The notes under the pieces are model-generated. The model worked only from the letters and a program-made list of their open reading frames with translations. It searched no databases and had not been told where the DNA came from. Positions 638 through 60,458 of a stretch of 64,000 nucleotides of DNA are shown here, piece after piece. The position numbers were made by a program, and so were the translations under genes. Each line of letters opens with the position of its first letter. The stretch's first letter is position 1. This stretch comes from Lachnospiraceae bacterium (GTDB lineage: Bacteria; Bacillota; Clostridia; Lachnospirales; Lachnospiraceae). The stretch is taken from NCBI GenBank assembly GCA_017525525.1, contig JAFXSQ010000075.1, forward strand, positions 27,684-91,683, written 5' to 3'.

Positions 638-666
638 AAGATTCTTCACTTCGTTCAGAATGACAC
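638..666 (-). repeat. GA-hairpin repeat, copy 1
   Basis: Read on the minus strand, the arms ATTCT and AGAAT pair around GA/GA, then AC pairs with GT over a GAA loop. It sits in the spacer between the 113-residue and 496-residue genes and faces copy 2. Confidence 0.7.
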
Positions 667-683
667 AATGGTTTAAATATTTT

Positions 684-712
684 TGTCATCCTGAGCAACG
701 CGAAGGATCTTT
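684..712 (+). repeat. GA-hairpin repeat, copy 2
   Basis: Arms ATCCT and AGGAT pair around GA/GA with an inner GC/GC pair and an AAC loop. The end of the repeat touches the stop codon of the 496-residue gene. It is inverted relative to copy 1, 17 nt away. Confidence 0.7.
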
Positions 713-2202
713 TATTCCGGGTAGTCTTCCAAATCCGCATCTATGATCTTATCTATCAGCAGCCTTGTCGCATGAAGCTCCGCGGCATCATTCACACTGT
801 CAAGCACATAGCTCACGTAATTCCTTATCTCATCCACAGAATTAAAGAACACCGGTATTGCGCTTATTCCTGCGGCCATAACCGCGCGCTTTACCTGCTT
901 TTTCATACCTGAAAGATGCGCTGTCACAAGCTCTGTCAGCTCCTTCTTAACAGCCTCAACATCCTCTGCCGCGGCAAGCTGTGCTTCATCACCCTCAGGC
1001 TTCTTTTCTTCATCCAGGCTTGCAAAATAACTTGTAGACATCAATCTGTAATAGGTGTCGGTCAGCTTAAAGCTTTCCGTAAGCCCCGCTTCCTTTAGCG
1101 TGTCCTCATACTGCTCCGCAAGTGACTCGCCTGCGGAAAGAAGCGCTGTGGTTTCCTCGGCGAGCTCCTCGGGTACTCCCTCAAGCTTGTAGAAGCCGTC
1201 CTCGACATCTATGGTTTTGTTCATCACGTCATGTATTATATCAACCGCTTCGCTGTAACCCCTTACCTTCAACGCCTGCTCCTTCACATCGGTTGATATA
1301 AGCATAACATAGGCTGAATTGATAAGCTGGGTTAAAAGGATATAATCGGAGCTTTCCTCGTCCATATCCGCCACGACCTCATCAAGCTTTGCCTGAAGGT
1401 CTTTGAAGGTTGCTCCGTCTATCGTGGCATAATCAGCCTCTTTGAAATCATTGAGCAAGCTCTTTAATGCCTCGTGGCCTTCCTCAAAGCCTTCCGGCTT
1501 GCTGATAAGGGTTAGTCCCTTGAACATCTCCGCAAAGCTTTCAAGTGCTGTCTTATCTGCTCCTTTATATAAGTCTAACGCATTAGACAGGATGTCGCAA
1601 AATCTCTGTTTTGTCATGCGCACCGGAAGCTGAGCAAGGATGTTCTTCATCCTGTCCATGATCATGGGCTGATCCTTGTCCTTGAAGATGAAGTTGACTA
1701 TGCGCTCGCAAAGCTCCTCCCTGTCAACCTCGGCAGCGCCGCCTAAAGCAGCAAACTCAACCCTGTTTAATACATATTCATACACATCGAAATGCTCCAC
1801 ATAGGAGGTTAAAACCGCTATCCTCTTTTCTGCCATGGAGCGAAGTCCCCTGATAAGAGCCATATCAGCATCGCTTATCTGCTCGCCATCCATAACCTTT
1901 CCCACAAGCTTCTCAAGGTCGGCAACAGCTTTCTTAAGCTCTGCGGTGTAGTCTGCTCCGTCCTCCTCACGCTCTATGAGATTTAAGCTCATGGTGTAAT
2001 AATTCATTGCGAAGTCAACAGCGGCGTACGCCATGTACGACGCCCTGGCGTAATCTATATATTCCTTTAAGGACTCTGCCGAGCCCTCTTCTTTTTTTAT
2101 GTTGTTAATGTACTTTTTTGCTTTCACTGTTATGTTATCCCATTCTTTTATTGTTTCGTGTCCATACTGTACGCCCGAAGAATCTTTTTTAAGATCCTTC
2201 AC
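712..2202 (-). CDS. Large helical acidic protein of unknown function
   Basis: About 496 residues, almost wholly alpha-helical by composition (long runs such as ADLEKLVGKVMDGEQ), acidic, without a signal peptide, membrane segment or recognisable catalytic motif. I do not recognise the family. The start is uncertain. The GTG at 2202 lies inside a copy of the dispersed hairpin repeat, and the first 15 or so codons merely translate repeat sequence. A later GTG at 2127 (VKAKKYINN), with GGGA about 10 nt upstream, would remove it. The frame is continuous back to the stop of the rhomboid-like gene at 2224, so the two genes are almost certainly co-transcribed. A role together with that membrane protein is an inference from position only. 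Confidence 0.65.
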   Translation of the reverse strand: MKDLKKDSSGVQYGHETIKEWDNITVKAKKYINNIKKEEGSAESLKEYIDYARASYMAYAAVDFAMNYYTMSLNLIEREEDGADYTAELKKAVADLEKLVGKVMDGEQISDADMALIRGLRSMAEKRIAVLTSYVEHFDVYEYVLNRVEFAALGGAAEVDREELCERIVNFIFKDKDQPMIMDRMKNILAQLPVRMTKQRFCDILSNALDLYKGADKTALESFAEMFKGLTLISKPEGFEEGHEALKSLLNDFKEADYATIDGATFKDLQAKLDEVVADMDEESSDYILLTQLINSAYVMLISTDVKEQALKVRGYSEAVDIIHDVMNKTIDVEDGFYKLEGVPEELAEETTALLSAGESLAEQYEDTLKEAGLTESFKLTDTYYRLMSTSYFASLDEEKKPEGDEAQLAAAEDVEAVKKELTELVTAHLSGMKKQVKRAVMAAGISAIPVFFNSVDEIRNYVSYVLDSVNDAAELHATRLLIDKIIDADLEDYPE

Positions 2203-2219
2203 TTCGTTCAGGATGACAC
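2191..2219 (-). repeat. GA-hairpin repeat, copy 3
   Basis: Arms ATCCT and AGGAT around GA/GA, inner AC/GT pair, GAA loop. It fills the 21-nt gap between the rhomboid-like gene and the 496-residue gene and is read through in frame by the latter. A lone right arm of the same family (GCCCGAAGAATCTT) lies beside it at 2173-2187. Confidence 0.7.
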
Positions 2220-2223
2220 TTAG

Positions 2224-3168
2224 TTACATTTTATTATCCGTTAATTTAACATGCGTATGAGTATAAAGGTGCTCGGAGCAGTACTCGTAATTGCCGTCGC
2301 ACTTCGAGCAGAACCTGAACTCCATCATGGGGTCGTCCTTCTCTGTCTTGCCGCATATTGCGCACTTGTGTCTTGTTACGCTTCCCGGGAAGTCGATTAT
2401 CTTGCCCTTCTCGGCATCGTGCTCCCGCTTCTTTCGTTCCATAGTGCGTTTTGCGGTGTAGGCCTTTCGTTGGAGCATAACCTTGGCATGTCCCGGAGTG
2501 TAATGCTTCATGAGGATCGTATACACAAGCCATACCACAACGACGCATATTATATTCACCCTGTTGCAAAGGGCGTTGTACTTGAAGAATAAATATCCGA
2601 GCCAGATAAGGTCTGCGTAAGCTAGATACTTGGCCCTGATCGGTATCACGAACATAAAGAGCATAAAGCTCTCGGAGTATATGAGCGCAAAGCCGAGGAA
2701 TATGGCGTCAAGTATATAGACTGTCGGCCCAAATTCCGGCACGTAATACATCGCCTCCTGAATCCACGCCTTGTCAATTCCCATACTGCCGCCGGTCGCC
2801 TGCAGGTAGAATATAAGCCCTGTGATCACGTTGCCAAGCATTAACACAATCAACATGGAAAAGACATATATATTATACATAAATGTACCGATGGACATCT
2901 CAATCGAACGTCCGAGCATAACATATACGAAAAGCATTACCAGAGTAAAATAATTGAATGAGCCCGGCATGGTAAATATCCATGTAAATACCCTCCACAC
3001 CTGTCCGCTTCCGAAAACCTTAAACGGGTCGAATACCAGCATTTCGTACACATCCGGTACAAGCCAGAATAAGATGTAGCTCAACGAGAAAACAATGACT
3101 GTAATCAGCGGGAGATTTTTGACTGATTTGCTTCCCCACTTCTCCTCTAATTTGTATAAGAATTTCAT
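2224..3168 (-). CDS. Rhomboid-like membrane protein with C-terminal zinc ribbon
   Basis: 314 residues with about six hydrophobic segments between residues 18 and 215 and a basic linker. A cysteine-rich tail at residues 265-303 (CAICGKTEKD, then CSKC, then YCSEHLYTHTH) should bind zinc. The segment GQVWRVFTWIFT after the first loop resembles the rhomboid/derlin signature GQxWRxxTxxF. However, I see no GxSG serine motif and no matching catalytic histidine, so it is probably an inactive, derlin-like member rather than a protease. It has its own promoter at 3211-3239. The 496-residue helical gene follows 21 nt after its stop, making a likely two-gene operon. A membrane scaffold or client-handling role is possible but unproven. 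Confidence 0.6.
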   Translation of the reverse strand: MKFLYKLEEKWGSKSVKNLPLITVIVFSLSYILFWLVPDVYEMLVFDPFKVFGSGQVWRVFTWIFTMPGSFNYFTLVMLFVYVMLGRSIEMSIGTFMYNIYVFSMLIVLMLGNVITGLIFYLQATGGSMGIDKAWIQEAMYYVPEFGPTVYILDAIFLGFALIYSESFMLFMFVIPIRAKYLAYADLIWLGYLFFKYNALCNRVNIICVVVVWLVYTILMKHYTPGHAKVMLQRKAYTAKRTMERKKREHDAEKGKIIDFPGSVTRHKCAICGKTEKDDPMMEFRFCSKCDGNYEYCSEHLYTHTHVKLTDNKM

Positions 3169-3210
3169 GATACCAATACCTCTTCCTATTTCTTTACATA
3201 ATCGTTTGTT

Positions 3211-3239
3211 ATTATACCCGAAAACCGAAAAAAAAACAA
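3211..3239 (-). promoter_or_regulatory. Promoter for the rhomboid-like gene
   Basis: On the minus strand, -35 TTGTTT (3239-3234), a 17-nt spacer and a perfect -10 TATAAT (3216-3211). The start codon at 3168 follows about 40 nt downstream. Confidence 0.6.
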
Positions 3240-3299
3240 TAAAAAAAGCACCTCAGCTTATTCCCTTGCTTATTTCTATCTAAAAACAGGTACAAAAAT

Positions 3300-3321
3300 G
3301 GCGGAGCATTGCTACTCCGCC
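3300..3321 (-). terminator. Probable terminator after the GNAT-like gene
   Basis: A 7-bp GC stem, GGCGGAG/CTCCGCC with an 8-nt loop, followed on the minus strand by ATTTTTG. It is about 200 nt past the GNAT-like stop. The rest of the 3240-3516 spacer shows only a doubtful 31-codon frame. Confidence 0.55.
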
Positions 3322-3516
3322 GGTACTTGAAATAAACACGTCACAAGTGTCTGCTATCTTTGGGAATTCTGCAATAAATACATTCTCTTCAAAAAGCAAG
3401 AAGGGCAGTTATAAATTATCCTTATGTTTTTCTGAAAACTCATTTACCAACTTATTAATAATATCCCTATCGTTAGTTTGAATACGCTCACAAAGCAGCT
3501 TCATATAATAAACAAG

Positions 3517-14026: not shown

Positions 14027-14057
14027 AAGATCCTTCGCTTCGCATAAGACATGACAC
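14027..14057 (-). repeat. Dispersed repeat, variant copy 4
   Basis: AAGATCCTTCGCTTCGCATAAGACATGACAC-type sequence in the 5' spacer of the 115-residue gene. It shares the AGGATCTT arm with the GA-hairpin family but has a different left arm (TGTCATGTCTTA), the same as copy 7. Confidence 0.55.
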
Positions 14058-14082: not shown

Positions 14083-14119
14083 GTGTCATTCTGAGGACCG
14101 CCGGCCCGAAGAATCTTTT
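14083..14119 (+). repeat. GA-hairpin repeat, copy 5
   Basis: Left arm GTGTCATTCTGAGG and right arm CCCGAAGAATCTT pair around GA/GA with a longer GC-rich loop. It lies between divergent genes. Confidence 0.65.
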
Positions 14120-16950: not shown

Positions 16951-16979
16951 AAAAAAGGGAGACACAGTCTCCCTTTTTT
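16951..16979. terminator. Bidirectional Rho-independent terminator
   Basis: A 12-bp stem, AAAAAAGGGAGA/TCTCCCTTTTTT, with a 5-nt loop between the convergent dprA and glyQS genes. The A-tract and T-tract serve both strands. Confidence 0.9.
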
Positions 16980-16982
16980 GCC

Positions 16983-17032
16983 GCGCCACACGCAGGTCAC
17001 GAAGTGACAAACTTCCTTATGCGTGTGTGCGC
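16983..17032 (+). repeat. Nested GAA-triloop hairpin, copy R1
   Basis: Outer helix CACACGCA/TGCGTGTG encloses an inner hairpin GTCAC-GAA-GTGAC and an unpaired 11-nt strand. It has the same architecture as four other copies in the window. It sits at the 3' end of glyQS, reading antisense to it. Confidence 0.6.
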
Positions 17033-17033
17033 A

Positions 17034-18425
17034 TCAGTAGTATAACTTCTTCTCGAAGTACTCCTTTAAGTCCTCAATCTTAACTCTCTCCTGCTCCATG
17101 GTGTCACGGTCTCTTACCGTAACCGCTCCGTCTGTCTCGGAGTCAAAGTCATAGGTTACGCAGAACGGAGTTCCGATCTCATCCTGACGGCGATAACGCT
17201 TACCGATGTTTCCTCTGTCATCGTACTCGCAATACCAGTACTTTGAGAGGTCGTTGAATACCTTCTCTGCGCCCTCAGCAAGCTTCTTTGAAAGCGGAAG
17301 CACTCCTATCTTAACAGGAGCAAGCGCCGGATGGAACCTAAGCACGGTTCTCATGTCACCGCCCTCGAGCTCCTCCTCATCATAAGCCTCGCAGAGGAAG
17401 GCAAGGACAACTCTGTCAGCTCCGAGTGAAGGCTCGATAACATACGGTATATACTTCTCCTTAGTTTCATCATCAAAGTACTCCATGGACTCGCCCGAAG
17501 TATTCTGATGCTGAGTAAGGTCATAATTGGTTCTGTCAGCGATACCCCAGAGCTCGCCCCAGTCAGTGAACGGAAAAGCGTACTCTATATCGGTTGTCGC
17601 GTTGCTGTAGAAGGAAAGCTCTTCCTTGTCATGGTCACGAAGTCTTAAGTTCTCCTTCTTTATACCGAGATCAAGAAGCCACTGATAGCAGAAGTTTCTC
17701 CAATACTCAAACCACTCAAGGTCGGTTCCCGGCTTACAGAAGAACTCAAGCTCCATCTGCTCGAACTCTCTGGTTCTGAAGGTAAAGTTGCCCGGTGTAA
17801 TCTCGTTTCTGAAGGACTTACCTACCTGGCCTATGCCGAAGGGAACCTTCTTTCTTGAGGTTCTCTGAACATTCTTGAAGTTAACGAATATACCCTGTGC
17901 CGTCTCAGGTCTCAAGTACACTGTGTTCTTTGCATCCTCGGTTACACCCTGGAAGGTCTTGAACATAAGATTGAACTGTCTGATGTCGGTAAAATTATGC
18001 TTACCACAGGTGGGACATGGGACGTTCTCATCATCTATGAACTTCTTCATGTCCTCGTTTGACCATCCGTCAACCGAAGACTTAAGCTCTATGCCCTTCT
18101 CCGCAGCGTAGTTTTCTATGATATTATCGGCTCTGAAACGCTCATGGCACTCACGGCAGTCCATAAGAGGATCCGAGAAGCTTCCCAAGTGGCCCGAAGC
18201 AATCCAGGTCTGGGGATTCATAAGGATTGCGCAGTCAACGCCCACATTATACGGATTCTCCTGTATGAATTTTTTCCACCATGCGCGCTTAACGTTGTTC
18301 TTGAACTCCACGCCGAGATTACCGTAATCCCAGGTGTTTGCAAGGCCTCCGTATATTTCGGAGCCCGGATAGATAAATCCTCTCGCCTTGGCCAAAGCCT
18401 CAATTTTGTCCATTGTCTTTTCCAT
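17034..18425 (-). CDS. glyQS: Glycyl-tRNA synthetase, alpha2-type
   Basis: 463 residues from the ATG at 18425, which has AAAGGA 9 nt upstream; earlier in-frame starts lack a proper site. The N-terminal class II core begins [21 protein letters not shown]. Motif 2 ([27 protein letters not shown]) and motif 3 ([14 protein letters not shown]) are visible, with an anticodon-binding domain in the last 110 residues ([13 protein letters not shown]). CxxC pairs CREC and CPTCG are present in the insertion. It charges tRNA-Gly in the cytoplasm. It follows recO, the common Clostridia order. The 100-nt spacer is too short for a T-box and instead holds a dispersed hairpin repeat, so it is probably expressed from the era-recO transcript. 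Confidence 0.95.
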
Positions 18426-18471: not shown

Positions 18472-18501
18472 AAGTTCCTTCGCTATCGCTCAGGATGACA
18501 G
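18472..18501 (-). repeat. GA-hairpin repeat, copy 6
   Basis: Arms ATCCT and AGGAA around GA/GA, inner GC/GC, GATA loop. It lies in the recO-glyQS spacer. One outer base pair is broken. Confidence 0.65.
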
Positions 18502-23231: not shown

Positions 23232-23261
23232 AAGATCCTCCGCTTCGCGTAAGACATGACA
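23232..23261 (-). repeat. Dispersed repeat, variant copy 7
   Basis: Same variant as copy 4 (AGGATCTT arm with TGTCATGTCTTA). It lies directly before the long composite repeat in the spacer upstream of the M16C gene. Confidence 0.55.
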
Positions 23262-23263
23262 GT

Positions 23264-23381
23264 TGTCATTTTGAGAGGAGAAACGCAAATGACGAAGTCA
23301 TTTTTACAATGCGTTTCGACGACATGACACGATTATGAATTAATCGTGTCAATACTATTGCTTTGCCCGAAGAATCTTTTT
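23264..23381 (+). repeat. 118-nt composite hairpin repeat (copy 8, contains R3)
   Basis: The outer arms TGTCATTTTGAG and GCCCGAAGAATCTT belong to the GA-hairpin family. Inside are nested hairpin R3 (23280-23317: GAAACGCA/TGCGTTTC around AATGAC-GAA-GTCATT) and a second stem at 23326-23350 (GACACGATTA/TAATCGTGTC). It is closely similar to 35209-35326, with compensating base changes in the stems. Confidence 0.75.
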
Positions 23382-34887: not shown

Positions 34888-35185
34888 GAGTGGTGATACT
34901 TGATATTCCAAATCACACTACGATTTTCTAAATCAGCGCGTTCGGGTATTCGTTTCGTTGCACGAAATCGCACAACCGTTACGCTTCGCTTCACTTATGC
35001 GATTTCTGAGCACTCAACTTCATACCACTTGGAGCAGTTCTTGCAGAGTATTTTTTACTCTGCTTAGAACTGCCCATCTGCAGGTGTCCGCCGAGGTTTT
35101 TCACGAGGCGGGTAACACCGAGCCAGCACTGCTGATTTGACGAAAATCTCCGCGAAAAGATTTGGAATATCAGTACACCACACCT
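34888..35185. repeat. 298-bp inverted-repeat element with internal hairpins
   Basis: The ends (34888-34936 and 35132-35185) pair imperfectly over about 45 nt; the cores are TGATATTCCAAATC and GATTTGGAATATCA. Inside are three hairpins: GAAATCGCA/TGCGATTTC (34964-35006), GCAGTTCT-TGCAGAGTA/TACTCTGC-AGAACTGC (35034-35073) and GGTGT-CCGCC/GGCGG-ACACC (35084-35118). There is no credible coding frame. It fills most of the 498-nt leuB upstream region. It could be a MITE-like element or a structured RNA. Confidence 0.55.
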
Positions 35186-35208
35186 CAAAGCTGTTTATTG
35201 AAATCCCA

Positions 35209-35326
35209 TGTCATTCTGAGGGCGAGGAGGAACGCTAAATGACGCAGTCATTTCTTGTATGCGTTCCGACGACAGGACACGACGAAGAATGAGTCGTGTC
35301 AATACCAATCTGCCCGAAGAATCTTT
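35209..35326 (+). repeat. 118-nt composite hairpin repeat (copy 9, contains R4)
   Basis: Same plan as 23264-23381: arms TGTCATTCTGAGGG and GCCCGAAGAATCTT, nested hairpin R4 (35229-35267: GGAACGC/GCGTTCC around AAATGAC-GCA-GTCATTT) and a second stem at 35276-35300 (GACACGAC/GTCGTGTC). Differences from the other copy keep the pairing. Confidence 0.75.
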
Positions 35327-37043: not shown

Positions 37044-39677
37044 TTATTCACTTTCCTTATTCTTTTCTTTATTCTTCTTCCTTATGAGATCGTAATATGG
37101 CTTTAACTTATATGGATCATTCTTATCTATGAGATTGCCTTCAAAATCAACATTGATCGGAGTTACGCCCCTTTTCTTAAGGCTTTCTTCATAAGCTTTA
37201 AGTTCTTTCTCCGTATAATCCTGTAAGTAGCCATGCTTAAATGCTCTCTCGAACGCATCAATGGGCTGGATACTATTCAGGTCAAAATTTTTTGAGGCAG
37301 GGACCCTGTTGAGCATCACCTCTGACATTACCTCGGGATGGTAATACATATATACCGATACCTTTAATCCAGCCTCTTTTCCTTCGCCATGTGAAGACTC
37401 TTCTTTAAGATGGTTATCCTCGCTCATAAGCTTTACAACAGTCTCATTCTTATGCTCCTCATAGCACCTGTCTATTTTCTCAGCCGTTATCCCCATCTTG
37501 CCCACATGTTCTTTCACGTCCTCATACGCTTCCTCTGAGGCGTTATAACCGGCAAAACCACTTGGCTGAAAGATCGGATTCTTACCCTTGGATTTCATGT
37601 ACAGACAGATAAGGTACTCGCGTGCATAACCAAAGAATGTCAGCTTAAGATTCAGACTTCCGTAAAGATCCGCACAGTCAATAAACTTCTGGCTGTCAAC
37701 CTTATACTTATTTCTCTTTGAATGATTCTTATTATAGTCATCAATAAATTTCTTAACTACATCCCTGTTTGGGGCAGTCAGGATATTGGTCACTGTCGTT
37801 GCAGTATTTACGAGATTTACCATCTCATCCGGATACTTTATCGCAAAATCTGCCGGTGAGAGGATAAAGGCCTTTGCTCCAATCGACTGCTCTATCTGCT
37901 CAAAGAGCGCAAAATGCTTATACAAGCTTCTCATAGCGGCATCTGCATATGAATCTTCATAATATTCAAATTCATCTTTGCCGATTGGCTCAAGCTTTTC
38001 TTCCTCCTCGGTAAGCTTTTCACCTTTCTCCCTTTTCATATCAGCTTCGTGACGATAGAAGAAATCTTTGTTTTTTATAATAAGCTCTCTTTCGACCAGC
38101 TCGATTATCTCACTATCGGACAAGTCGTCAGAAAGCTCCCTGATTATTTTCTCAACCATACGAGACATCATATCTGATACTTCCATTTTAGCAAGTTCAG
38201 GATACTTTTTGGAATCGAAAACAAGCCTGCCTATCATGTGTCCATCATACATCTTTGCGTTAAGCCTTTTTATACGCGCCAGTATGTCCGGGCGCCTTTT
38301 TTCTTCTTCCTTTGCTGCAAGCGTCGTCTGTGACATAAGGAAGCTGGCAGAAGCTCCGCCGTAGACCGCAACATATGAATTAGCATGCTTAACCTTTTTC
38401 TTCTTATACTTCTTTTCCTTATCGTCGTAGACTTCAACAGTCCTGCTGATGTCCGTAAGCTTGCCCAGGCAGTCTCTGGTCTTGTAATTGGCAATATTGT
38501 CACCCTGTATCCTGAGCCTTTCAAGCTCGTCTCTTATCTGGTCTTCCCTGTACAGTAATGCGTCCTGGTCGGACAAGTTCTTTTCTGTCTTTATGTGCCG
38601 GATGACATCTTCGTTGATCATGAACGCCTTGTCGGTTGCTTCAAAAGCATCCTTTGAGAGCTTGCTCTCGCCTTCGTAAAGCCCGTTTGGCTCTATCTCG
38701 TTTTGACCGAGTATCCTGTTTAAGTTGGCAGCGATGTGGTAAGAGGCGCGGAGCATCTCTTTCAAGTGCCTTGTTCCCTTTGTATCTGTCTCCTTTATCT
38801 CCTGCTCGATATTTCCGCCCCTTGCGATGTACTCCGAATCCTTCATGATCATAGTCCTGATGCGGTAGTAGTCGGACATGGCGCACAGGGTGTTCATCTG
38901 TTTTGTGAGCTTGTCGTAATAGCTGTCATCCTCGTTTTCATTCTTTGTCTTTTTTAAGTGCTCGACATAGTGCGGATTGTCTTCGAGCATCTCCCTGTAT
39001 GCTGAAACCATGCTGTTCATGCTCTCAAACCGTGAAGCTTTCTGAGCGATTGCCTTATCCGAGGTAAAATCAAAGTCAGATGGATCGATACCCATGATCT
39101 TGTCTGTAAGCTTGTCTAAGACCTCGAATCTATCCGGGGTTCCTTCCTTCTTACCATATTTTACCACCATTTCGTCAAACTGCTCCCTGGACATTTCTGC
39201 CACCATGGCAGGGTAAAACTGTGAGAGCTGGACAAATGCCTGGTAGCCTGCGCGTGACTTTACCTTGATATCCGTAGACATACGGTAGTCTGCCTTTATG
39301 TCCTTTTCAGCAAACGCTCCGCTTCTTAAAAGTTCGGCATTTGCTTCCCTTTCTTCAGCGAGCTTTTCGCTTGAACCGTAGTAGTGTATATTCTCGGTAA
39401 CTGTCTCGTCCGCCTTTAAGAAACGCTTCTTTGTGACTCTTGTCACACTCTTTACAACACTTTCCCTGTTTATCTTCTTTATATTAAGCTTTCTTTCCTT
39501 TGCCTGCTTGAAGCTTTTGGCGAGACGGGTTTTTGTCATGTTCTGCTCATGAGCCACCTCTTCCGGAATCTGCGGAGCGTAAAGTTTCTTCTGTTCCGCA
39601 TTCACATTGATGTTTTCGTCAAGCTTTACATCTTTATTGACCTTCAGTTCCTGCTTCTTTACTAATTCTTCATCCAT
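37044..39677 (-). CDS. Large soluble protein of unknown function, 877 aa
   Basis: The start is the ATG at 39677 (MDEELVKKQELKVNKD), with GGGAGG 8 nt upstream. The longer frame begins in a dispersed repeat and reads VTLSKAKSL, a translation of that repeat. The protein is hydrophilic and lysine/glutamate-rich, helical throughout, without a signal peptide or membrane helices. Conserved-looking islands are SRAGYQAFVQLSQFYPAMVA (about 145), NSYVAVYGGASASFLMSQTT (about 450), GAKAFILSPADFAIKYPDEM (about 620) and GYAREYLICLYMKSKGKNP (about 720). I recognise no domain, ATP-binding site or nuclease motif. It is flanked by repeats and has no obvious operon partner. Size and isolation suggest a structural or effector-like role, but none can be assigned. 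Confidence 0.7.
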   Translation of the reverse strand: MDEELVKKQELKVNKDVKLDENINVNAEQKKLYAPQIPEEVAHEQNMTKTRLAKSFKQAKERKLNIKKINRESVVKSVTRVTKKRFLKADETVTENIHYYGSSEKLAEEREANAELLRSGAFAEKDIKADYRMSTDIKVKSRAGYQAFVQLSQFYPAMVAEMSREQFDEMVVKYGKKEGTPDRFEVLDKLTDKIMGIDPSDFDFTSDKAIAQKASRFESMNSMVSAYREMLEDNPHYVEHLKKTKNENEDDSYYDKLTKQMNTLCAMSDYYRIRTMIMKDSEYIARGGNIEQEIKETDTKGTRHLKEMLRASYHIAANLNRILGQNEIEPNGLYEGESKLSKDAFEATDKAFMINEDVIRHIKTEKNLSDQDALLYREDQIRDELERLRIQGDNIANYKTRDCLGKLTDISRTVEVYDDKEKKYKKKKVKHANSYVAVYGGASASFLMSQTTLAAKEEEKRRPDILARIKRLNAKMYDGHMIGRLVFDSKKYPELAKMEVSDMMSRMVEKIIRELSDDLSDSEIIELVERELIIKNKDFFYRHEADMKREKGEKLTEEEEKLEPIGKDEFEYYEDSYADAAMRSLYKHFALFEQIEQSIGAKAFILSPADFAIKYPDEMVNLVNTATTVTNILTAPNRDVVKKFIDDYNKNHSKRNKYKVDSQKFIDCADLYGSLNLKLTFFGYAREYLICLYMKSKGKNPIFQPSGFAGYNASEEAYEDVKEHVGKMGITAEKIDRCYEEHKNETVVKLMSEDNHLKEESSHGEGKEAGLKVSVYMYYHPEVMSEVMLNRVPASKNFDLNSIQPIDAFERAFKHGYLQDYTEKELKAYEESLKKRGVTPINVDFEGNLIDKNDPYKLKPYYDLIRKKNKEKNKESE

Positions 39678-39692
39678 TGTCTGTCCTCCCTT

Positions 39693-39721
39693 AAGACTCT
39701 TCGCTTTGCTCAGAGTGACAC
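39693..39721 (-). repeat. GA-hairpin repeat, copy 10
   Basis: Arms ACTCT and AGAGT around GA/GA, inner GC/GC, AAA loop. Both sides of the outer helix differ from other copies but still pair. It lies just upstream of the 877-residue gene. Confidence 0.7.
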
Positions 39722-39741
39722 CTCGTGTCATTCTATGAACC

Positions 39742-39776
39742 GTGTCATTCTGAGGGCTTTAGCCCGAAGAATCTTA
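39742..39776 (+). repeat. GA-hairpin repeat, copy 11
   Basis: Arms ATTCT and AGAAT around GA/GA with a GGGCT/AGCCC inner stem. An isolated left arm (GTGTCATTCTATGAACC) precedes it at 39725-39741. It lies at the 3' end of aroE-aroK. Confidence 0.75.
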
Positions 39777-42801: not shown

Positions 42802-42830
42802 ACGCAAACCCTCCTCGTATAATATGTAAT

Positions 42831-42904
42831 GGCACGATTGCTAAAGCAATCCTGCCCAGTCTAATGTCATAAGGAATCCACCGCTTCGCGGTACCCCTTA
42901 TGAC
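42831..42904 (-). repeat. Nested GAA-triloop hairpin, copy R5, plus second stem
   Basis: On the minus strand, outer helix GTCATAAGG/CCTTATGAC (42904-42866) encloses ACCGC-GAA-GCGGT. A second stem, GGCA-GATTGCT/AGCAATC-TGCC, follows at 42856-42831, as in the 118-nt composites. The stop codon of the upstream gene lies inside the first helix. The GA-hairpin arms are absent. Confidence 0.6.
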
Positions 42905-44580
42905 GAAAGCAGCTCCCAAATCCCTTTAAAGCCCTTCTCATCATATATCCTTTTGTAGTAATCAACCTCTTCGCGGATCAGCTCATCTATCACCTGCATC
43001 GACAGAAGCTCAACCGGTGCACGGTCGTCGGTCATCACATGCTTACCCGGTGCATATGCAATCAGATTATCCCACACATGCTCCATCATGGCTTTTAGGT
43101 CTTCATCCGTGCATGAGGCTACATTTTCAAGAAATGTATCGCAGCTTTCCCGGCTATCGAAAGCGAAAAGCTCCCTGTTCGTACCTCCGCTTACATCTAC
43201 CGTATATATGCAGTTGAAAACTTCTGCTATGGTATCGGCGAGATACTCGTTTATATTCCCCTCCTTGGTCCCGCGCATGTTCATATTCACCACCATCACC
43301 CCGCCCGGCTTAAGATGGTCGTGCACCAGGGTAAAGAACTCTTTGGAGGCCATTTGAAAAGGAATTGTGATATCCTGGTAAGCGTCTACCATGATCACAT
43401 CATAGCGCCCGTTGCTTCCGTAACCCGCTATCTCCTTATCACTCATGGACGAAAGCGCCTCAAGGTAAGCCCTTCCGTCGTAGGTTGTAACCCTTATATC
43501 CTCCGGAAGCTCGAAATACTCATGAGCAAGCTTCGTGATTTTGTCATCAATCTCCACTCCCTCTATGTTCACATCCCCGAAATATCTTCTGCACTGCGTC
43601 GCATAGGTTCCGGTGCCCATGCCGAGTATCAGTACATCAAGCTTGCTGTCCTTAGTCATCACGCCCGCCATAAAAGGCGCCGCCATCGCGTAATCATAAT
43701 ACATGCCGGTAAGCTCTATCTCGCGGTCGTACACGGACTGTACTCCGAAGAGAACATTTGTCGAGAGATATACCCTGCTGCCCTGCTCATATACCTGAAG
43801 GTAGTTGTATATCGACTCATCCTCCACAGTTAAATCATGCTGCCAGAAGGCAAAGCTTGTGTCATGCCCGAATATGCAGCACAGGAGAAAGATTCCCCCG
43901 GCTATCGCAGTCTTCACCGGCCTTATCTTCGCGCTCACGAAGTAGATCACCGCAAGCAGAAGCAATATGCCCGCAAAGATAAGAAATGTAACGGAGGTTC
44001 CCACCGCAGGTATGCTTATAAAGGTCGGGACAAAGGTTCCGATTATGCTTCCTATGGTATTGAATGCATTCAGGTTGCCTACCACTCTTCCGCTGTCCGA
44101 AAGAGAGTCCACCGTGTACTTTACAAGTGACGGAGTGACAGTTCCAAGCAAAAAGAGCGGAAACACGAATATAACCATGCATGCCGCAAATGCAGCGACA
44201 ACAAGAAAGTTCGTGCTTATTGTAAACACGAGCAGGCCGGCAATCCCTATAATCAGGAACTTCCCCACTACCGGGATGAGCGCTATCCAGAGCGCCGCCA
44301 CGGTTATCCTCCCGTACAGTCTGTCCGGGTTTGGATTTTTGTCCGCCGAGCGCCCGCCGTAGATATTGCCCAAGGCCATGGCTATCATGATGGTTCCGAT
44401 TATTATGGTCCACACTATCTGTGAGGACGAAAAGTACGGAGCCAGAAGCCTGCTTGCGCCGAGCTCCACCGCCATGACACTCATGCCGGCGAAAAACTCC
44501 GTCATATAGAGGTAAAGCTTATTCTTTAGTATAGGAGGCAGGGAAATCGCTTCTCCTGCCTCCGTATCTCTTTTGTTCAT
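42898..44580 (-). CDS. Membrane-fused spermidine synthase-like protein
   Basis: 560 residues. The first 240 form about seven or eight membrane helices (FFAGMSVMAVELGASRLLAP onward, with a YGGRSADKNPNP loop), a form often annotated as a fused MFS/spermidine synthase. Residues about 300-500 are a spermidine-synthase-like methyltransferase-fold domain: VLILGMGTGTYATQ (nucleotide loop), IEGVEIDDKITKLA and YDVIMVDAYQDITIPF. Aspartates that bind the polyamine amino groups are only partly kept, so the substrate is uncertain. It should act at the inner face of the membrane. It lies between galE and rfbD on the same strand; no speD or speA is present to support a polyamine pathway here. Confidence 0.75.
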   Translation of the reverse strand: MNKRDTEAGEAISLPPILKNKLYLYMTEFFAGMSVMAVELGASRLLAPYFSSSQIVWTIIIGTIMIAMALGNIYGGRSADKNPNPDRLYGRITVAALWIALIPVVGKFLIIGIAGLLVFTISTNFLVVAAFAACMVIFVFPLFLLGTVTPSLVKYTVDSLSDSGRVVGNLNAFNTIGSIIGTFVPTFISIPAVGTSVTFLIFAGILLLLAVIYFVSAKIRPVKTAIAGGIFLLCCIFGHDTSFAFWQHDLTVEDESIYNYLQVYEQGSRVYLSTNVLFGVQSVYDREIELTGMYYDYAMAAPFMAGVMTKDSKLDVLILGMGTGTYATQCRRYFGDVNIEGVEIDDKITKLAHEYFELPEDIRVTTYDGRAYLEALSSMSDKEIAGYGSNGRYDVIMVDAYQDITIPFQMASKEFFTLVHDHLKPGGVMVVNMNMRGTKEGNINEYLADTIAEVFNCIYTVDVSGGTNRELFAFDSRESCDTFLENVASCTDEDLKAMMEHVWDNLIAYAPGKHVMTDDRAPVELLSMQVIDELIREEVDYYKRIYDEKGFKGIWELLSS

Positions 44581-44657
44581 ATTATTCTCCGATTAAATTT
44601 CCGTGTCATTCTGAGAGCGCAAGCCTTCATTTCATATCAGTCACACTGCACGCTTTT

Positions 44658-44691
44658 GTGTCATTCTGAGGGCTTCAGCCCGAAGAATCTT
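44658..44691 (+). repeat. GA-hairpin repeat, copy 12
   Basis: ATTCT/AGAAT around GA/GA with inner stem GGGC/GCCC and a TTCA loop. It ends 2 nt from the rfbD stop. A lone left arm (GTGTCATTCTGAGAGCGC) is at 44603-44620. Confidence 0.75.
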
Positions 44692-45723: not shown

Positions 45724-45754
45724 GTGTCATCCTGAGCGTCAGCGAAGGATCTTT
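45724..45754 (+). repeat. GA-hairpin repeat, copy 13
   Basis: ATCCT/AGGAT around GA/GA, inner GC/GC, GTCA loop. It lies immediately after the glnN stop, between glnN and rfbD. Confidence 0.75.
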
Positions 45755-47853: not shown

Positions 47854-47917
47854 AATCATTCTCCTTTTTTTATCAAGTCTTTTTATTGCAAATATTTAAG
47901 CCACACAATACCGTGTC

Positions 47918-47946
47918 ATCATACCATATTTCTGTATGATTGTCAC
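47918..47946 (-). promoter_or_regulatory. Promoter for glnN
   Basis: On the minus strand, -35 GTGACA (47946-47941), a 17-nt spacer and -10 TATGAT (47923-47918). The -35 begins at the last base of metA. Confidence 0.55.
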
Positions 47947-48866
47947 TACTCAGCCGCCTCTTCAAGTATGTACGGCGTAGCCTGGTATACATAGTAGTTA
48001 AGCCAGTTCGCATAAAGCGTGTTCGCATGACAGCGCCACGACTTTATGGGCTTTTGCTCCGGATCGTCGCCCGGATAATAATTGACGGGGATGTTCGGGT
48101 TTAAGTCCCTTTTGATATCCCTGTGGTACTCGGAGTCAAGCGTCATGGTGTCGTACTCCGGGTGCCCCGTCACAAATATCCTCTTTCCCTTATCGCCTAT
48201 GATAAGACAGGAGCCCGTCTCCTCGGAGTAAGCAACAACCTTCAGCCTTCTGTTCTTAGCTATCGCTTCCTCGTCACATCCGGTATTTCTCGAGATGGGA
48301 ATCAGAAATGTATCGTCAAAGCCCCTTACCAGCTCCGTCTTCTTATGCACCGTCGTCTGCGGGTAGATGCCCGAAAGCTTCTGCGGAAGGACTATCTTCT
48401 TTATCCCGTAGTGATAATAAAGCCCCGCCTGGGCTCCCCAGCAGATGTGGAAGGTCGAGGTAACATTTTCCTTGGACCACTTCATGATTGCTGTAAGCTC
48501 CTTCCAGTACTCCACCTCCTCGAATTCCATGAACTCGACCGGCGCGCCCGTGATTATCAGTCCATCCCACTTACGCTTCTTCACCTGCTGAAAGCTCGTG
48601 TAGAACCTCTCAAGGTGTGTCTTCGAGGTGTGCTTTGACTCGTAGGACATGGTTCTTATGAAATGGATATTGACCTGCAGAGGAGTGTTAGACAGGCTTC
48701 TGAGTAACTGAAGCTCCGTGTCCTCCTTTAAAGGCATAAGGTTCAGGATTAGGATCTCAAGCGGTCTTATGTCCTGACTCATGGCCCTGTTCTCGTCCAT
48801 TACGAATATGTTTTCTTTTTCAAGCGTCTTCTTAACCGGAAGATCGTTGTCTATCCTGATAGGCAT
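47946..48866 (-). CDS. metA: Homoserine O-acetyltransferase, MetA family
   Basis: 306 residues of the MetA glutamine-amidotransferase-like fold. It begins MPIRIDNDLPVKKTLEKENI. The nucleophile is Cys142 in FHICWGAQAG, with His and Glu of the triad in VTGHPEYD near residue 235. The residue that decides the acyl donor is Glu111 (GAPVEFMEF). In characterised relatives Glu at this place gives acetyl-CoA specificity and Gly gives succinyl-CoA, so the product should be O-acetylhomoserine despite the common annotation as succinyltransferase. It commits homoserine to methionine synthesis. It has its own strong promoter; the leader is only about 35 nt, so no SAM riboswitch fits. Confidence 0.95.
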   Translation of the reverse strand: MPIRIDNDLPVKKTLEKENIFVMDENRAMSQDIRPLEILILNLMPLKEDTELQLLRSLSNTPLQVNIHFIRTMSYESKHTSKTHLERFYTSFQQVKKRKWDGLIITGAPVEFMEFEEVEYWKELTAIMKWSKENVTSTFHICWGAQAGLYYHYGIKKIVLPQKLSGIYPQTTVHKKTELVRGFDDTFLIPISRNTGCDEEAIAKNRRLKVVAYSEETGSCLIIGDKGKRIFVTGHPEYDTMTLDSEYHRDIKRDLNPNIPVNYYPGDDPEQKPIKSWRCHANTLYANWLNYYVYQATPYILEEAAE

Positions 48867-48904
48867 GTCATCTACCTCTTTTCATGTTTTGCATTAACTT
48901 ATAA

Positions 48905-48933
48905 ATGATACCTCTTTAACGATAATATGTCAA
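48905..48933 (-). promoter_or_regulatory. Promoter for metA
   Basis: On the minus strand, perfect -35 TTGACA (48933-48928), a 17-nt spacer and -10 TATCAT (48910-48905). Confidence 0.7.
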
Positions 48934-48935
48934 AT

Positions 48936-48967
48936 AAGACAGTGGACATTTTTAATCTCACTGTCTT
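48936..48967 (-). terminator. Terminator after the NUDIX gene
   Basis: A 9-bp stem, AAGACAGTG/CACTGTCTT, with a 14-nt loop, followed by ATTTG, just past the stop at 48979. The metA promoter begins directly after it. Confidence 0.65.
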
Positions 48968-48978
48968 ATCTGCGCGCC

Positions 48979-49479: not shown

Positions 49480-49507
49480 AAGACTCTTCGCTTCCTGCTC
49501 AGTGTAA
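49480..49507 (-). repeat. GA-hairpin repeat, copy 14 (degenerate)
   Basis: Arms ACACT and AGAGT around GA/GA with GC/GC and an AGGAA loop; one outer pair is lost. It lies upstream of the NUDIX gene. Confidence 0.5.
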
Positions 49508-49539
49508 CGCCTTGTGTTTTTACATTACCTTCTTTATCA

Positions 49540-57456: not shown

Positions 57457-57525
57457 TCTAAATATCACCTCTCTTCCTCTTACTTAATTCGCCACAATCT
57501 CTGGCTCTCCAACGTGAAAATACAA

Positions 57526-57751: not shown

Positions 57752-57860
57752 TAATAAAACGCCTGCAACCCCGTGAATGCTCCGCATCGCCTACGCGTAA
57801 GAAAAAAGAGTCACGTAAGTTATCCGGCTAAGCCGGACTCATACTGAACAGGCGTTTATT
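57752..57860 (-). terminator. Complex terminator after the EF-hand gene
   Basis: On the minus strand a stem GAGTC/GACTC (57840-57808), containing TCCGGCT/AGCCGGA, is followed by TTTTTT. An outer stem, AATAAA(A)CGCCTG against CAGGCGTTTATT (57752-57764 and 57849-57860), encloses it. Confidence 0.6.
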
Positions 57861-57893
57861 ACCTCGTTTAATACCACACACATACATCAAGAT

Positions 57894-58079
57894 TCAATCA
57901 TCATCTTCTTCGTCATCTTCTTCGTCATCGTCTTCGTCCTCTCCGTTCATTTCGCGGTCAAAGCGTTCATCGTCGTAGTAATCATAATAATCATCACGCA
58001 AAAACTCCTCCGAAGCATCTAACTTCCCATCGCCATCCCTATCAAAACGCCAGTCGTCATCATCATCGAATAATCCCAT
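57894..58079 (-). CDS. Small acidic protein with one EF-hand loop
   Basis: 61 residues, more than half Asp or Glu. Residues 13-24 (DRDGDGKLDASE) form a canonical 12-residue EF-hand loop, with Asp at 1, 3, 5, Gly at 6, a hydrophobic residue at 8 and Glu at 12. This predicts calcium binding. The C-terminal 20 residues are almost pure Asp/Glu. AAGGAGG is 9 nt before the ATG. Short EF-hand peptides starting MGLFD occur in Lachnospiraceae and other Clostridia; their role is not known. No signal peptide is present, so it is cytoplasmic. Confidence 0.7.
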   Translation of the reverse strand: MGLFDDDDDWRFDRDGDGKLDASEEFLRDDYYDYYDDERFDREMNGEDEDDDEEDDEEDDD

Positions 58080-58127
58080 ATTATATACCTCCTTCTTTCA
58101 ATTTGGTCTGCCAACATATTTGATGTA

Positions 58128-58517
58128 CTACAAATTCATCTCCGCAACCTTCTCCATGTAAGCTTTCTTCCTGCTCTCCGGCAGTATGGAAAACTGATAA
58201 TAAAACAGCTTTATAAGTATCTCGTCCGCTGAGTTCTTCCCTAAGTTCCTGTATCGCTGCAGTTGTTTCCTGCTTGTCGCATCAGGCTTAGCGTAACACT
58301 CTTCCACCAGCTCACCTACGGTGTGAATTCCCGCCCTTCTCAGACTGTTATTCGACCGAACAGAAAACTCCAGCGCATCTATGCTCTGTGCCATATGCTC
58401 CGGCTTAAGCATCATCTGAAACCGGAACATCTTCTTGTTTCTCACCAGTATCTCCTCAATAGTCGTCCCTTCAAGATACTGATTCAGTTTTAACTTTTGA
58501 TTCTCCTTCTTTGCCAT
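58128..58517 (-). CDS. Stand-alone RNA polymerase alpha-CTD-like protein
   Basis: 129 residues from the ATG at 58517, with AGGGGGAAA before it. Residues about 50-110 resemble the alpha-subunit C-terminal domain: ALEFSVRSNNSLRRAGIHTV, then GELVEE and YRNLGKNSADEILIKL, the two helix-hairpin-helix motifs that bind UP elements and activators. The assembly (N-terminal) domain is absent, and the first 45 residues are a basic, unrelated segment. It might compete with or modify the alpha-CTD at promoters, or bind DNA alone. It is the next gene upstream of the EF-hand peptide, with a 48-nt gap. Confidence 0.7.
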   Translation of the reverse strand: MAKKENQKLKLNQYLEGTTIEEILVRNKKMFRFQMMLKPEHMAQSIDALEFSVRSNNSLRRAGIHTVGELVEECYAKPDATSRKQLQRYRNLGKNSADEILIKLFYYQFSILPESRKKAYMEKVAEMNL

Positions 58518-58611
58518 ATGATTTCCCCCTGAAAAACACATGACTGTATTATACCCCAAATCGATTCATTTGTATATCCAGCAAAATGTATCTGTACAAT
58601 TTATTACCCTC

Positions 58612-58645
58612 GAAAAAACAGCATCCATACAGATGCTGTTTTCTC
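58612..58645. terminator. Terminator after the orphan antitoxin gene
   Basis: AAACAGCATC/GATGCTGTTT, a stem with a 6-nt loop followed on the minus strand by TTTTTCG; the plus strand also has a T-run. Confidence 0.8.
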
Positions 58646-58710
58646 ATTATTTCCTTATCCGCATATCAGTACCCGGATCTTATTCATCGCCACAGAAATC
58701 ATCATTCTCA

Positions 58711-58956
58711 TCATAGACCAAGCCTCTTTTCCGCATCATCAAGAGAAATCCAACCCTCTCTACGCGCCGAAGCTTCTCCCTTTTCTAACTCTGAAAAAAG
58801 AGATTTTAAAGCTTTCAATTCATCAAGCTCTTTCATATCAACAATAGCATAATCTCCTCTGCCATTTTTCGTCAGATACACCGGATTACCATATGATACC
58901 TTTCCAAGCACAGTTCTATAATCTCTTAAATCAGACACCGGCAAAATATTTGGCAT
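58711..58956 (-). CDS. Phd/YefM-type antitoxin, apparently without toxin
   Basis: 81 residues from the ATG at 58956 (MPNILPVSDLRDYRTVLGKV), with GGAGGTGAAA upstream. The N-terminal DNA-binding fold of the Phd/YefM family is clear, with TKNGRGDYAIVDMKELDELK at about 30-49, and a short C-terminal toxin-binding tail. In intact systems a RelE/Doc-type toxin gene overlaps the antitoxin stop. Here the sequence after the stop contains only an 18-codon frame beginning at the overlapping ATGATG, then a terminator. It is either an orphan regulator or what remains of a broken toxin-antitoxin pair. Confidence 0.75.
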   Translation of the reverse strand: MPNILPVSDLRDYRTVLGKVSYGNPVYLTKNGRGDYAIVDMKELDELKALKSLFSELEKGEASARREGWISLDDAEKRLGL

Positions 58957-59135
58957 ATTTTCACCTCCAAACCACATAAAATCTACTATTGTCTTACACT
59001 CTTGTTTAATCGATTAATACGATGTATATTGCGCATTCGTATCTTTCTTGGAAATGAAGACATATTACACATTATTTGTCATCATATTTTACGAATAATT
59101 TATCTTGTTTTGTTATCAAATATGTGTAATGTGTA

Positions 59136-60371
59136 TCAATCAAAATCCAGCATGCCGTTACCTAAGCCCTTCCAGTTGACACTAACAAGGGTGCTCTCAT
59201 CGATGTACATATGCAGCCAGTTCTGATACTCCTCCTCGTCAAAGATGTTCTCAAGAGAATAGTCCCAGTCCTCCGGGCCTGTTACGCCGTTTATGTAATA
59301 GAGAAGCTGGTCGCCGTCTTTGTCAAGGTCGGTCGGGAAGGGGTTGCCGTCCCAATCCTGATCAAATATGCTTCCGTCCCAGGCATCCACATAGAACACC
59401 GCCTCGTAGCAGTCCTCATCCGCCACGTATCTGTACATGGTAAAAGGCCAGAAGCGTCCCGCAAGGCCCTGATTATGAGATACGTCGATAGTTGCAAAGC
59501 CATCGAAATATCTATCGTTCGGGAAGAAATGCCCCTCAAGATACACTCCTCTGTTATCGTCATAGCCGAATACATAGACAGCGCACTCTGCCATGCTGGC
59601 ATTGGTCAGGCGCGCCAAAAGCTCGCGCTTTCCGTCATAATCCACATCACAGCATGCATACTCATCAAACATGTGATAACCGTCCGGACCCTGAACGGTT
59701 CCGCTGTCTACCGCTGAAATAGTGTAATAATCGTTCTTATACGGCACCTGGAGAACACCGTCAGTCTTGCTCCTTATCAGCAGCGTCTCGTAGGCAATAA
59801 GCATCTCCTCTTCATCGGCGCCTGCCTTTTCGGTGGTCTTCTCAGTTGTCTTTTCCGTGGTTTTCTCTGTCGTCTTCTCGGTGGTCTTTTCAGTAGTTTT
59901 CTCTGTCGTTTTTTCTGTGGTCTTCTCTGTAGCTTCCGTAGTCTGCTCGGTCGACTTTTCTTCCGTCTTGTCCACGGTTGTGCCTTCAGTCGAAACCGAC
60001 GCTGCAGCTGTGGTTGTTTCGGCGTTCTTATTCTTTCCGCCTGCAACCATAACTATAATCACAACAGCAAGCGCCACTACCACTACTGAAAGAGATATAA
60101 TTATAGCTATCAGTCCTGTTTTATTCGGGCCGCCACCCTGTCCGTCTGCGCCTCCCTGCATTCCGTAATACTGTCCCTGCTGCATGTTATTCCCCTGTTG
60201 AGGATACCCCTGCTGCATATTATTCATTTGCTGAGGATACCCCTGCTGCCCGTAGTTCATCGACTGTTGAGTGTATCCCTGCTGCACATTATTCATTTGC
60301 TGTGTGTATCCCTGCTGCCCGGCGTTCGCCGGCTGCTGCGGATATCCCTGTCCGTTATTATTCTGATCCAT
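59136..60371 (-). CDS. Single-pass membrane protein with Q-rich head and TTEK repeats
   Basis: 411 residues. The cytoplasmic head (1-80) is built from GYPQQ/GYTQQ and MNN units and is rich in Gln, Gly, Asn and Tyr. One membrane helix follows (about 87-112: LIAIIISLSVVVVALAVVII). Next comes a Thr/Glu/Lys linker with eight TTEK units in a row (about 150-182), then a folded outer domain of about 220 residues with acidic, tryptophan-rich loops (VDAWDGSIFDQDWDGNPFPT). The linker looks like a wall-spanning stalk. The outer domain has DxDxDG-like patches (DVDYDGK, DLDKDGD) that might bind calcium. Family not recognised; proteins of this plan are common in Lachnospiraceae. Confidence 0.65.
   Translation of the reverse strand: MDQNNNGQGYPQQPANAGQQGYTQQMNNVQQGYTQQSMNYGQQGYPQQMNNMQQGYPQQGNNMQQGQYYGMQGGADGQGGGPNKTGLIAIIISLSVVVVALAVVIIVMVAGGKNKNAETTTAAASVSTEGTTVDKTEEKSTEQTTEATEKTTEKTTEKTTEKTTEKTTEKTTEKTTEKTTEKAGADEEEMLIAYETLLIRSKTDGVLQVPYKNDYYTISAVDSGTVQGPDGYHMFDEYACCDVDYDGKRELLARLTNASMAECAVYVFGYDDNRGVYLEGHFFPNDRYFDGFATIDVSHNQGLAGRFWPFTMYRYVADEDCYEAVFYVDAWDGSIFDQDWDGNPFPTDLDKDGDQLLYYINGVTGPEDWDYSLENIFDEEEYQNWLHMYIDESTLVSVNWKGLGNGMLDFD
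59829..59936 (-). repeat. 12-bp tandem repeats coding TTEK
   Basis: Eight TTEK-coding 12-mers plus one ATEK unit. Codons vary among units (ACC/ACA/ACG, GAG/GAA), so the array is old and held by the protein sequence rather than freshly duplicated. Confidence 0.85.
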
Positions 60372-60387
60372 ACTTTACCTCCATTTT

Positions 60388-60458
60388 AAGACTCTTCGCT
60401 ACCTGTTGCTTCGCAAGCCCTCGCATTTCGTCATAAGGGGTACCGCTAAGAGTGACAC
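60388..60458 (-). repeat. GA-hairpin repeat, copy 15, with insertion
   Basis: Outer arms ACTCT and AGAGT are separated by about 45 nt that include TCATAAGGGGTACCGC, matching the strand of hairpin R5. It looks like a partial composite element between ligA and the TTEK protein gene. Confidence 0.55.

Follow-up and report, generated by a model that had tools for sequence, protein, structure and literature searches.

The window examined here is a stretch of 64,000 nt from a Lachnospiraceae bacterium (assembly GCA_017525525.1, contig JAFXSQ010000075.1, positions 27,684 to 91,683 of the forward strand), whose source genome, G000, comprises 3.19 Mb in 75 contigs. The spacers between its predicted genes carry, on either strand, a short hairpin repeat that consists of a (G)TGTC tag, a five-bp stem, a GA…GA step enclosing a variable interior, and a CT(T) tail. 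An earlier note, prepared from the letters of the window, had listed ten start positions for this repeat; all ten carry it, with starts displaced by 0-1 nt, and the GA-bearing strand is the minus strand at 638, 2191, 18472, 39693 and 49480. Table 1 has 17 entries, among them imperfect copies, two composites and five remnants or variants, compared with about 15 copies in the note. In G000 as a whole, the pattern TGTCATYCTGAG-N2..25-CGAAGRATCT gave 132 matches (78 forward and 54 reverse, a few of them overlapping), compared with 0 for a backward control pattern. A bare descriptor of five base pairs, GA/GA and two further pairs is not rare, with 35 matches in the window and 17 in the reversed window, and the significance of the repeat therefore rests on its sequence, its tag and its genome-wide number. 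As developed below, this repeat looks more like mobile DNA than regulatory RNA.

When only perfect arms of the stem types already seen were demanded, and neither tag nor tail, the window yielded eight hairpins and the reversed window none; all eight were preceded by TGTC and followed by CT. Likewise, in G000 TGTC preceded 107 of 113 copies for which the tag was not demanded (CGTC preceded one), and CT followed 108 of 113 for which the tail was not demanded, although most of these 113 copies lie in DNA that had been fetched with the full pattern, which is not true of the window. We then tabulated 120 distinct copies with a [TC]GTC tag and GA/GA from ~370 kb of G000 DNA, overlaps included. The outer stem was ATTCT/AGAAT in 70, ATCCT/AGGAT in 36, ACTCT/AGAGT in 4 and the mixed ATCCT/AGAAT in 4, with six single others, and a CTT tail followed 115. 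The first stem pair was A-T in 108 of 117 copies and the second T-A in 105 of 117. Beyond the five pairs and the GA/GA step the stem mostly continues with two or more pairs, and the interior ranges from 7 to about 145 nt. The most frequent interiors were GCGAAGC (31 copies) and GCGTAGC (8), followed by longer stems such as GGGCTTTAGCCC, and one form has a second GA step (GGAGCGAAGCGAC). The DNA heptamer d(GCGAAGC) is an unusually stable mini-hairpin, a property that was not used as evidence here. Positions that no pattern demanded define the ends of the unit: G preceded TGTC in 86% of 111 simple copies and in 91% of 22 composites (units with cargo in the loop), and TT followed ATC in 98-99% and 95%, respectively, after which conservation dropped to 50-68%. 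Only nine of the 120 copies lay inside predicted open reading frames (ORFs), though ~91% of the window is predicted to be coding, so that the copies are not spread at random through coding DNA.

The earlier note had proposed a covarying outer helix. To measure this we anchored copies on TGTC, GA, GA and CT only and re-dealt the 3' arms 500 times. All five outer pairs formed in 100 of 117 G000 copies, compared with 70.6 after re-dealing (standard deviation 2.6, maximum 78), and the helix is thus borne out. The same was seen in 80 loci from named genomes (described below), where 133 of 142 copies were fully paired compared with 85.8 after re-dealing (standard deviation 3.2, maximum 95) and pair 3 occurs as T-A, C-G and G-C. 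Reversed sequences gave 8 and 5 anchored matches, respectively, none of which was paired. A change of stem at one and the same place was also visible: the unit at window position 35209 has ATTCT/AGAAT, and its counterpart in the same spacer of G012, a genome of the same genus, has ATCCT/AGGAT. With only tag and outer stem as anchors, GA/GA was retained in 106 of 108 G000 copies and 133 of 136 copies in the named loci; the claim that it never changes is therefore nearly right, with a few exceptions. Possible wobble pairs, considered as a means of telling RNA from DNA, were too few to use for that purpose, amounting to four C·A and no G·T in G000 (n=113), none in G012 and G018 (n=32), and three and four, respectively, in the named loci (n=148).

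Tandem GA is a known kind of protein-binding step in RNA. A transcribed element of the 3' untranslated region or intergenic RNA, acting as an mRNA stabiliser, processing site or protein-bound hairpin and selected for its RNA fold, would accommodate the covarying stem, the near-invariant GA/GA and the location in spacers. It would also fit the folding of one form, with a GGGC/GCCC inner stem, which is better than that of shuffled sequences as RNA (z -2.94), and many REPs (repetitive extragenic palindromes) are plausibly transcribed according to the available text of PMC3733652. The orientation of copies argues less clearly. In spacers between genes of the same direction, 61 copies were sense and 38 antisense (63:39 with a slightly different gene set), a mild sense bias with both orientations common. 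The median distance from a sense copy to the predicted start downstream of it was 24 nt, and that from an antisense copy back to the stop upstream was 16.5 nt; both orientations retained the CTT tail and the G in front of TGTC (87% and 84%). Since the RNA fold of the short form is also ordinary, we regard an RNA element as unlikely, and evidence from cargo and from related genomes, given below, points the same way. Some hairpins are followed by CTTTTT, and in spacer 16953-17036 G000 has, by eye, a terminator-like hairpin and T-run where G012 has repeats, as would be expected if the family were bidirectional intrinsic terminators. However, only 5 of 54 sense copies had TTTT in the 8 nt following the stem, compared with 18 of 38 antisense copies, the reverse of expectation, and the stem is short and broken by GA/GA; the T-run counts led us to reject this explanation, which we consider highly improbable. 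The earlier note's leaning towards an RNA motif is thus less well supported than its other points, given the mild orientation bias, the antisense T-runs and the varying occupancy of spacers. A motif bound by a protein remains most likely, with single-stranded DNA as the bound molecule, since a tag, a mismatched hairpin and an adjacent CT are the features that REP transposases cleaving single-stranded DNA are reported to use (PMC8266576).

Some units enclose cargo. In the G000 DNA that was fetched we found 22 composites at places with different outer flanks, each measuring 109-165 nt up to ATC, of which 19, including the two of the window, have interiors resembling GA-cis (RF02987) and three contain another unit of 134 nt. 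GA-cis is an RNA family that we take to be a candidate cis-regulatory RNA. At gathering scores, RF02987 matched only the interiors of the two composites in the window and no simple copy. Conversely, 16 of 40 fetched GA-cis regions of G000 were nested in the repeat frame (these 40 were taken down the E-value list, and some are cut short or hold more than one GA-cis), and a separate core scan found 13 of 23 GA-cis-like cores nested, all on the same strand and none on the other. GA-cis also stands alone, and in composites it is the cargo and not the repeat itself. With 96 matches in G000, 10 in G006 and 16 in G012, GA-cis is a dispersed repeat family in its own right. Some of these matches are in tandem ~92 nt apart, and several lie at contig ends. 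Stand-alone GA-cis of one near-identical type (loci L407, L408, L411, L414, L420 and L423) ends, by eye, just upstream of what is likely a start codon in the same orientation, as if it supplied a leader or ribosome-binding region.

The distribution of the repeat among relatives is patchy. Among 20 genomes of the genus, the pattern matched 132 times in G000, 118 in G012, three in G018, once in G210 and not at all in the remaining 16; among 250 sampled genomes of the family it was present in eight (G082 with 158 matches, G000 with 132, G245 with 13 and five with 1-3). A regulator needed by the genus would not be expected to be missing from 16 of its 20 genomes and nearly so from two more. Individual spacers also differ between G000 and G012, whose aligned DNA is ~75-90% identical. 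Of the spacers compared, only that at 35209 is occupied in both genomes by copies of like orientation, and there the G012 counterpart has just AAC in its loop instead of GA-cis. At 44659 the two copies are on opposite strands. Four spacers that are occupied in G000 (603-734, 2156-2245, 18472 and 45724) lack an intact copy in G012, and at 16953-17036 only G012 has an intact one. The hairpin of G012 at 47879-47945 is tagged but lacks GA/GA, and neither genome has a copy at 48866-48978. Such changes of occupancy, together with the carriage of cargo, speak against an RNA element and are more readily understood if the units are mobile DNA. A classical miniature inverted-repeat transposable element with target-site duplication was rejected, as direct duplications of 3-9 nt flanking 89 units showed no excess over shuffled flanks at any setting.

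Scanning of genomes for TGTCATYCTGAGCGNAGCGAAGRATCT returned at least 116 stretches, giving the 80 loci of named genomes used above. By record titles, the matches listed for the 27-mer pattern span about 15 phylum-level groups, namely Bacteroidota, Bacillota, Chloroflexota, Acidobacteriota, Nitrospirota, Nitrospinota, Planctomycetota, Fibrobacterota, Pseudomonadota, Desulfobacterota with other deltaproteobacteria, Gemmatimonadota, Verrucomicrobiota, Chlorobi/Ignavibacteria, Poribacteria and Patescibacteria, in keeping with the broad family that the earlier note had suspected. Nearly all of the loci listed come from metagenome-assembled genomes, in which contamination of single bins is possible; four have isolate-like titles, all of them Bacteroidota. 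Fifty host genomes, representing 50 of the 80 loci, had 3-308 matches each, and the control had 0. Copies in the named loci differ in detail from those of G000: the tail was CT in 134 and CC in 12 (n=155), and among 129 copies G before the tag was not conserved, while T after ATC was present in 94%. We also considered plasmids and phages as carriers. A single 91-nt dimer query at E up to 1 matched only 10 of 72,556 plasmid records (weaker matches, in Planktothrix, Calothrix, Gloeothece and Phocaeicola) and 1 of 50,697 phage records, and these candidates were set aside. In a collection of viral contigs, 99 stretches had the 27-nt pattern.

We compared the repeat with known REP systems, relying on the available text of the sources cited. 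The closest is the superfamily of CGTC-tagged REPs described by Di Nocera et al. 2013 (PMC3733652), which have an unpaired CGTC, often TGTC, tag at one end, a stem that opens with complementary A-T residues and a short tail, and which are mostly intergenic, form dimers, occur in several phyla and have no transposase association reported in that text. The present repeat fits this plan in tag, stem start, location and the lack of a flanking RAYT transposase, but fails two features. The stems described are 8-9 bp with loops of 4-5 nt, whereas here GA/GA interrupts the stem after five pairs and the interior is far more variable, and the tail described is mostly CCA, compared with CT(T) here. This likeness was judged by description and not by comparing consensus letters, as was the likeness to dRS3 of Neisseria and to RPE-6 and RPE-4 of Rickettsia, which follow the same tagged-palindrome plan according to PMC3733652. 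That survey kept palindromes with two or more mismatches only as partners in dimers. Since this exclusion would hide many copies of the present repeat, it was probably missed for that reason. The literature searched, which held few subscription papers and no figures, described no TGTC repeat with a tandem GA step, a result that is not proof of an unpublished family.

Dimers provide a second comparison. In the convention of PMC3733652, HH denotes dimers with the tags outside and TT those with the tags inside. Pairs less than 250 nt apart in G000 comprised 18 tag-inside and three tag-outside, in addition to seven plus-plus and two minus-minus pairs that include overlapping calls and a tandem array. 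The 80 named loci had 25 tag-outside, 10 tag-inside and five same-direction pairs, and thus favour tag-outside, as do the described CGTC families (PMC3733652). Eleven of these 25 tag-outside pairs have spacers of 25-33 nt and resemble REPINs, in which two inverted copies flank a spacer (Bertels and Rainey 2011, PMC3116915); in contrast, copies in G000 are mostly single or in tag-inside pairs, and a RAYT was not found there. GTAG-tagged REPs, which occur with TnpA_REP/RAYT in REPtrons (PMC8266576), share with the present repeat a tag, a mismatched hairpin (in the E. coli type), an adjacent CT and, presumably, action on one strand, but the present tag is TGTC and the repeat is the flanking REP of none of the RAYTs examined. 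E. coli TnpA_REP is reported to act on one strand of single-stranded REP DNA and to cut at CT 5' or 3' of the hairpin; it reportedly needs the tag and loses activity once the stem mismatches are repaired (PMC8266576). Because the tag, the near-invariant mismatch step and the adjacent CT are of the same kinds, we take the repeat to work like a REP.

We therefore asked whether a RAYT, now lost from G000 or unrecognised in it, had mobilised the repeat, as the similar anatomy (tag, mismatched hairpin, CT and inverted dimers) would allow. The model PF01797 matched 143 of 250 family genomes, which indicates that the search works. NF047646 gave no match in G012, G018 or G082 (E up to 0.001); at the same threshold it matched in 37 of the 50 host genomes, 24 of the 50 over the curated cut-off, and the 13 without a match include one with 238 copies of the repeat. 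We examined 30 RAYT loci (~100 kb), which represent 30 of the 37 genomes by a single locus each. None had the repeat as its flanking REP, in agreement with the lack of transposases reported beside CGTC REPs in the available text of PMC3733652; other transposase classes were not searched. Of the 26 loci that were long enough to test, 25 had some other sequence repeated on either side of the RAYT, in many cases a palindrome by eye, a count that has no chance control. One strict copy lies ~0.9 kb from the RAYT in L338. Half motifs occur in the RAYT loci L311, L317, L329 and L334, and L314 has a CGTC-tagged relative close to its RAYT. G245 has two RAYT-like ORFs and G082, with its 158 copies, two partial Y1_Tnp matches, and the surrounding 1.7-3.3 kb contained no copy. 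In the 80 named loci, the top groups from an all-against-all grouping of ORFs look common by eye, and a single Y1-type motif expression had no match; the search did not extend to other transposase classes. Neither the family search nor the neighbourhood search thus supports a cognate RAYT, which we consider improbable. The lack of a cognate gene in these searches would also suit a passive spread of short palindromes by replication slippage, recombination or gene conversion, without a dedicated enzyme, as would four tandem copies at exactly 77-bp spacing on contig C11 of G000 (72494-72751). However, such processes would not be expected to give units with defined ends in unrelated flanks, to conserve a tag and a tail that lie beyond the palindrome, or to place an almost identical 27-mer in about 15 phylum-level groups among the matches listed, and we hold this explanation to be very unlikely.

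On balance, the repeat is probably a non-autonomous, REP-like mobile DNA element that works as a single-stranded DNA hairpin with an enzyme acting in trans, a reading in which we place moderate confidence. The working form would be a single-stranded hairpin with 5' (G)TGTC, a five-pair outer stem, tandem GA/GA, a variable interior and 3' CT(T). A putative DNA-cleaving protein, probably of a type that acts on single-stranded hairpins (HUH or similar), would read the tag, the mismatch step and the stem and cut near CT, and would then move or copy the unit singly, as an inverted pair or together with loop cargo. The single-stranded substrate, the place of cutting and a present or past mobiliser are what we infer by analogy with the REP systems above.

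Several points weigh against such an element. No movement was observed, mobility being read from sequence, and the spacers of G000 and G012 are too diverged for exact empty sites or insertion points to be read. Neither PF01797 nor NF047646 matched in G000 (E up to 0.001), and the RAYT loci of the host genomes had the repeat as flanking REP in 0 of 30 cases. Most copies come from scans that demanded the tag and GA, which favours intact copies, as does the use of DNA fetched with the full pattern. Outer-stem variation in G000 consists mostly of two or three subfamilies, so that independent compensatory events are few and fewer than the copies. With standard energies the shortest form is not unusually stable (DNA z 0.27, RNA z -0.14), the DNA model does not return the drawn fold for the double-GA form, and only the GGGC/GCCC form beats shuffled sequences (DNA z -2.55, RNA z -2.94), with its complement nearly equal; folding energies therefore allow no choice of strand or molecule. 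Dimers in G000 are mostly tag-inside, unlike the mostly tag-outside CGTC families (PMC3733652). Finally, gene conversion or recombination could have spread so short a repeat.

A broader proposal, which we put forward tentatively and as somewhat doubtful, is that a single REP-like element, nearly letter-identical in ~15 phylum-level groups among the matches listed, is moved by a widespread non-RAYT enzyme that acts on single-stranded DNA hairpins and reads the tandem GA, and that its ends can carry loop cargo including a catalogued RNA family. If the reading as a mobile element is right, a repeat of many bacterial genomes would be one family of mobile units with defined ends, and the question of what moves CGTC/TGTC REPs, for which a lack of transposases is reported, would become testable. 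It would also suggest that one Rfam candidate RNA spreads partly as the cargo of a mobile unit, which would bear on how candidate RNAs from comparative scans are read.

Table 1. Copies, composites, variants and remnants of the repeat in the window
Position	Strand	Feature
638..665	-	Simple copy, TGTC-ATTCT-GA-ACGAAGT-GA-AGAAT-CTT; tag-inside dimer with 684
684..711	+	Simple copy, ATCCT/AGGAT stem
2173..2186	+	3' half only (GCCCGAAGAATCTT), adjoins the 2191 copy
2191..2218	-	Simple copy, ATCCT/AGGAT stem
14027..14056	-	Variant of the TGTCATGTCTTAYGC...GAAGGATCTT subfamily, 5' arm unpaired
14084..14117	+	Copy with 13-nt interior (GGACCGCCGGCCC)
18472..18500	-	Imperfect copy, outermost pair broken (ATCCT/AGGAA)
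23232..23261	-	Degenerate copy of the TGTCATGTCTTA subfamily, adjoins composite
23264..23378	+	Composite, repeat ends around GA-cis RNA (RF02987, 23273-23360)
35209..35325	+	Composite, repeat ends and GGGC/GCCC inner stem around GA-cis (35222-35310)
39693..39720	-	Simple copy, ACTCT/AGAGT stem, in 5' end of predicted ORF 37044-39731; tag-inside dimer with 39743
39743..39775	+	Copy with GGGCTTTAGCCC interior
44604..44631	+	5' half only (TGTCATTCTGAGAGCGCAAGCC...)
44659..44691	+	Copy with GGGCTTCAGCCC interior
45725..45753	+	Simple copy, GCGTCAGC interior
49480..49509	-	Imperfect, degenerate copy
60403..60457	-	Remnant of another composite type (TGTCACTCTTAGCGG... beside GCGAGGGCTTGCGAAGCAACAG end)

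A number of minor observations concern these and neighbouring sequences. The subfamily TGTCATGWCTTAYGC...GAAGRATCTT keeps the tag, 3' half and tail while its 5' arm does not pair; it has seven members in the G000 DNA that was fetched, and its sites include window positions 14027-14056 and 23232-23261 as well as L408, L415 and L423. Short tandem arrays of one repeat half (for example CTCAGAATGACACCGGAGGGAT units) adjoin full copies in L183, L202 and L233. The end beside the remnant at 60403-60457 recurs in L018, L029 and L036, where it closes the 134-nt cargo unit, and the remnant has a 25-nt inverted match in common with 42884-42908. The latter falls within a stretch of 100 nt (42810-42909) that is identical at three more places in the genome (C55, C54 and C12), all at or near contig ends, and is probably the end of a mobile element. 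Beside the 35209 composite lies another dispersed repeat (34909-35199), 80-91% identical at C49, C28, C12 and several G012 contigs, part of which is missing from the G012 counterpart. Tandem 12-nt units occupy 59814-59990 within the predicted ORF 59136-60371.

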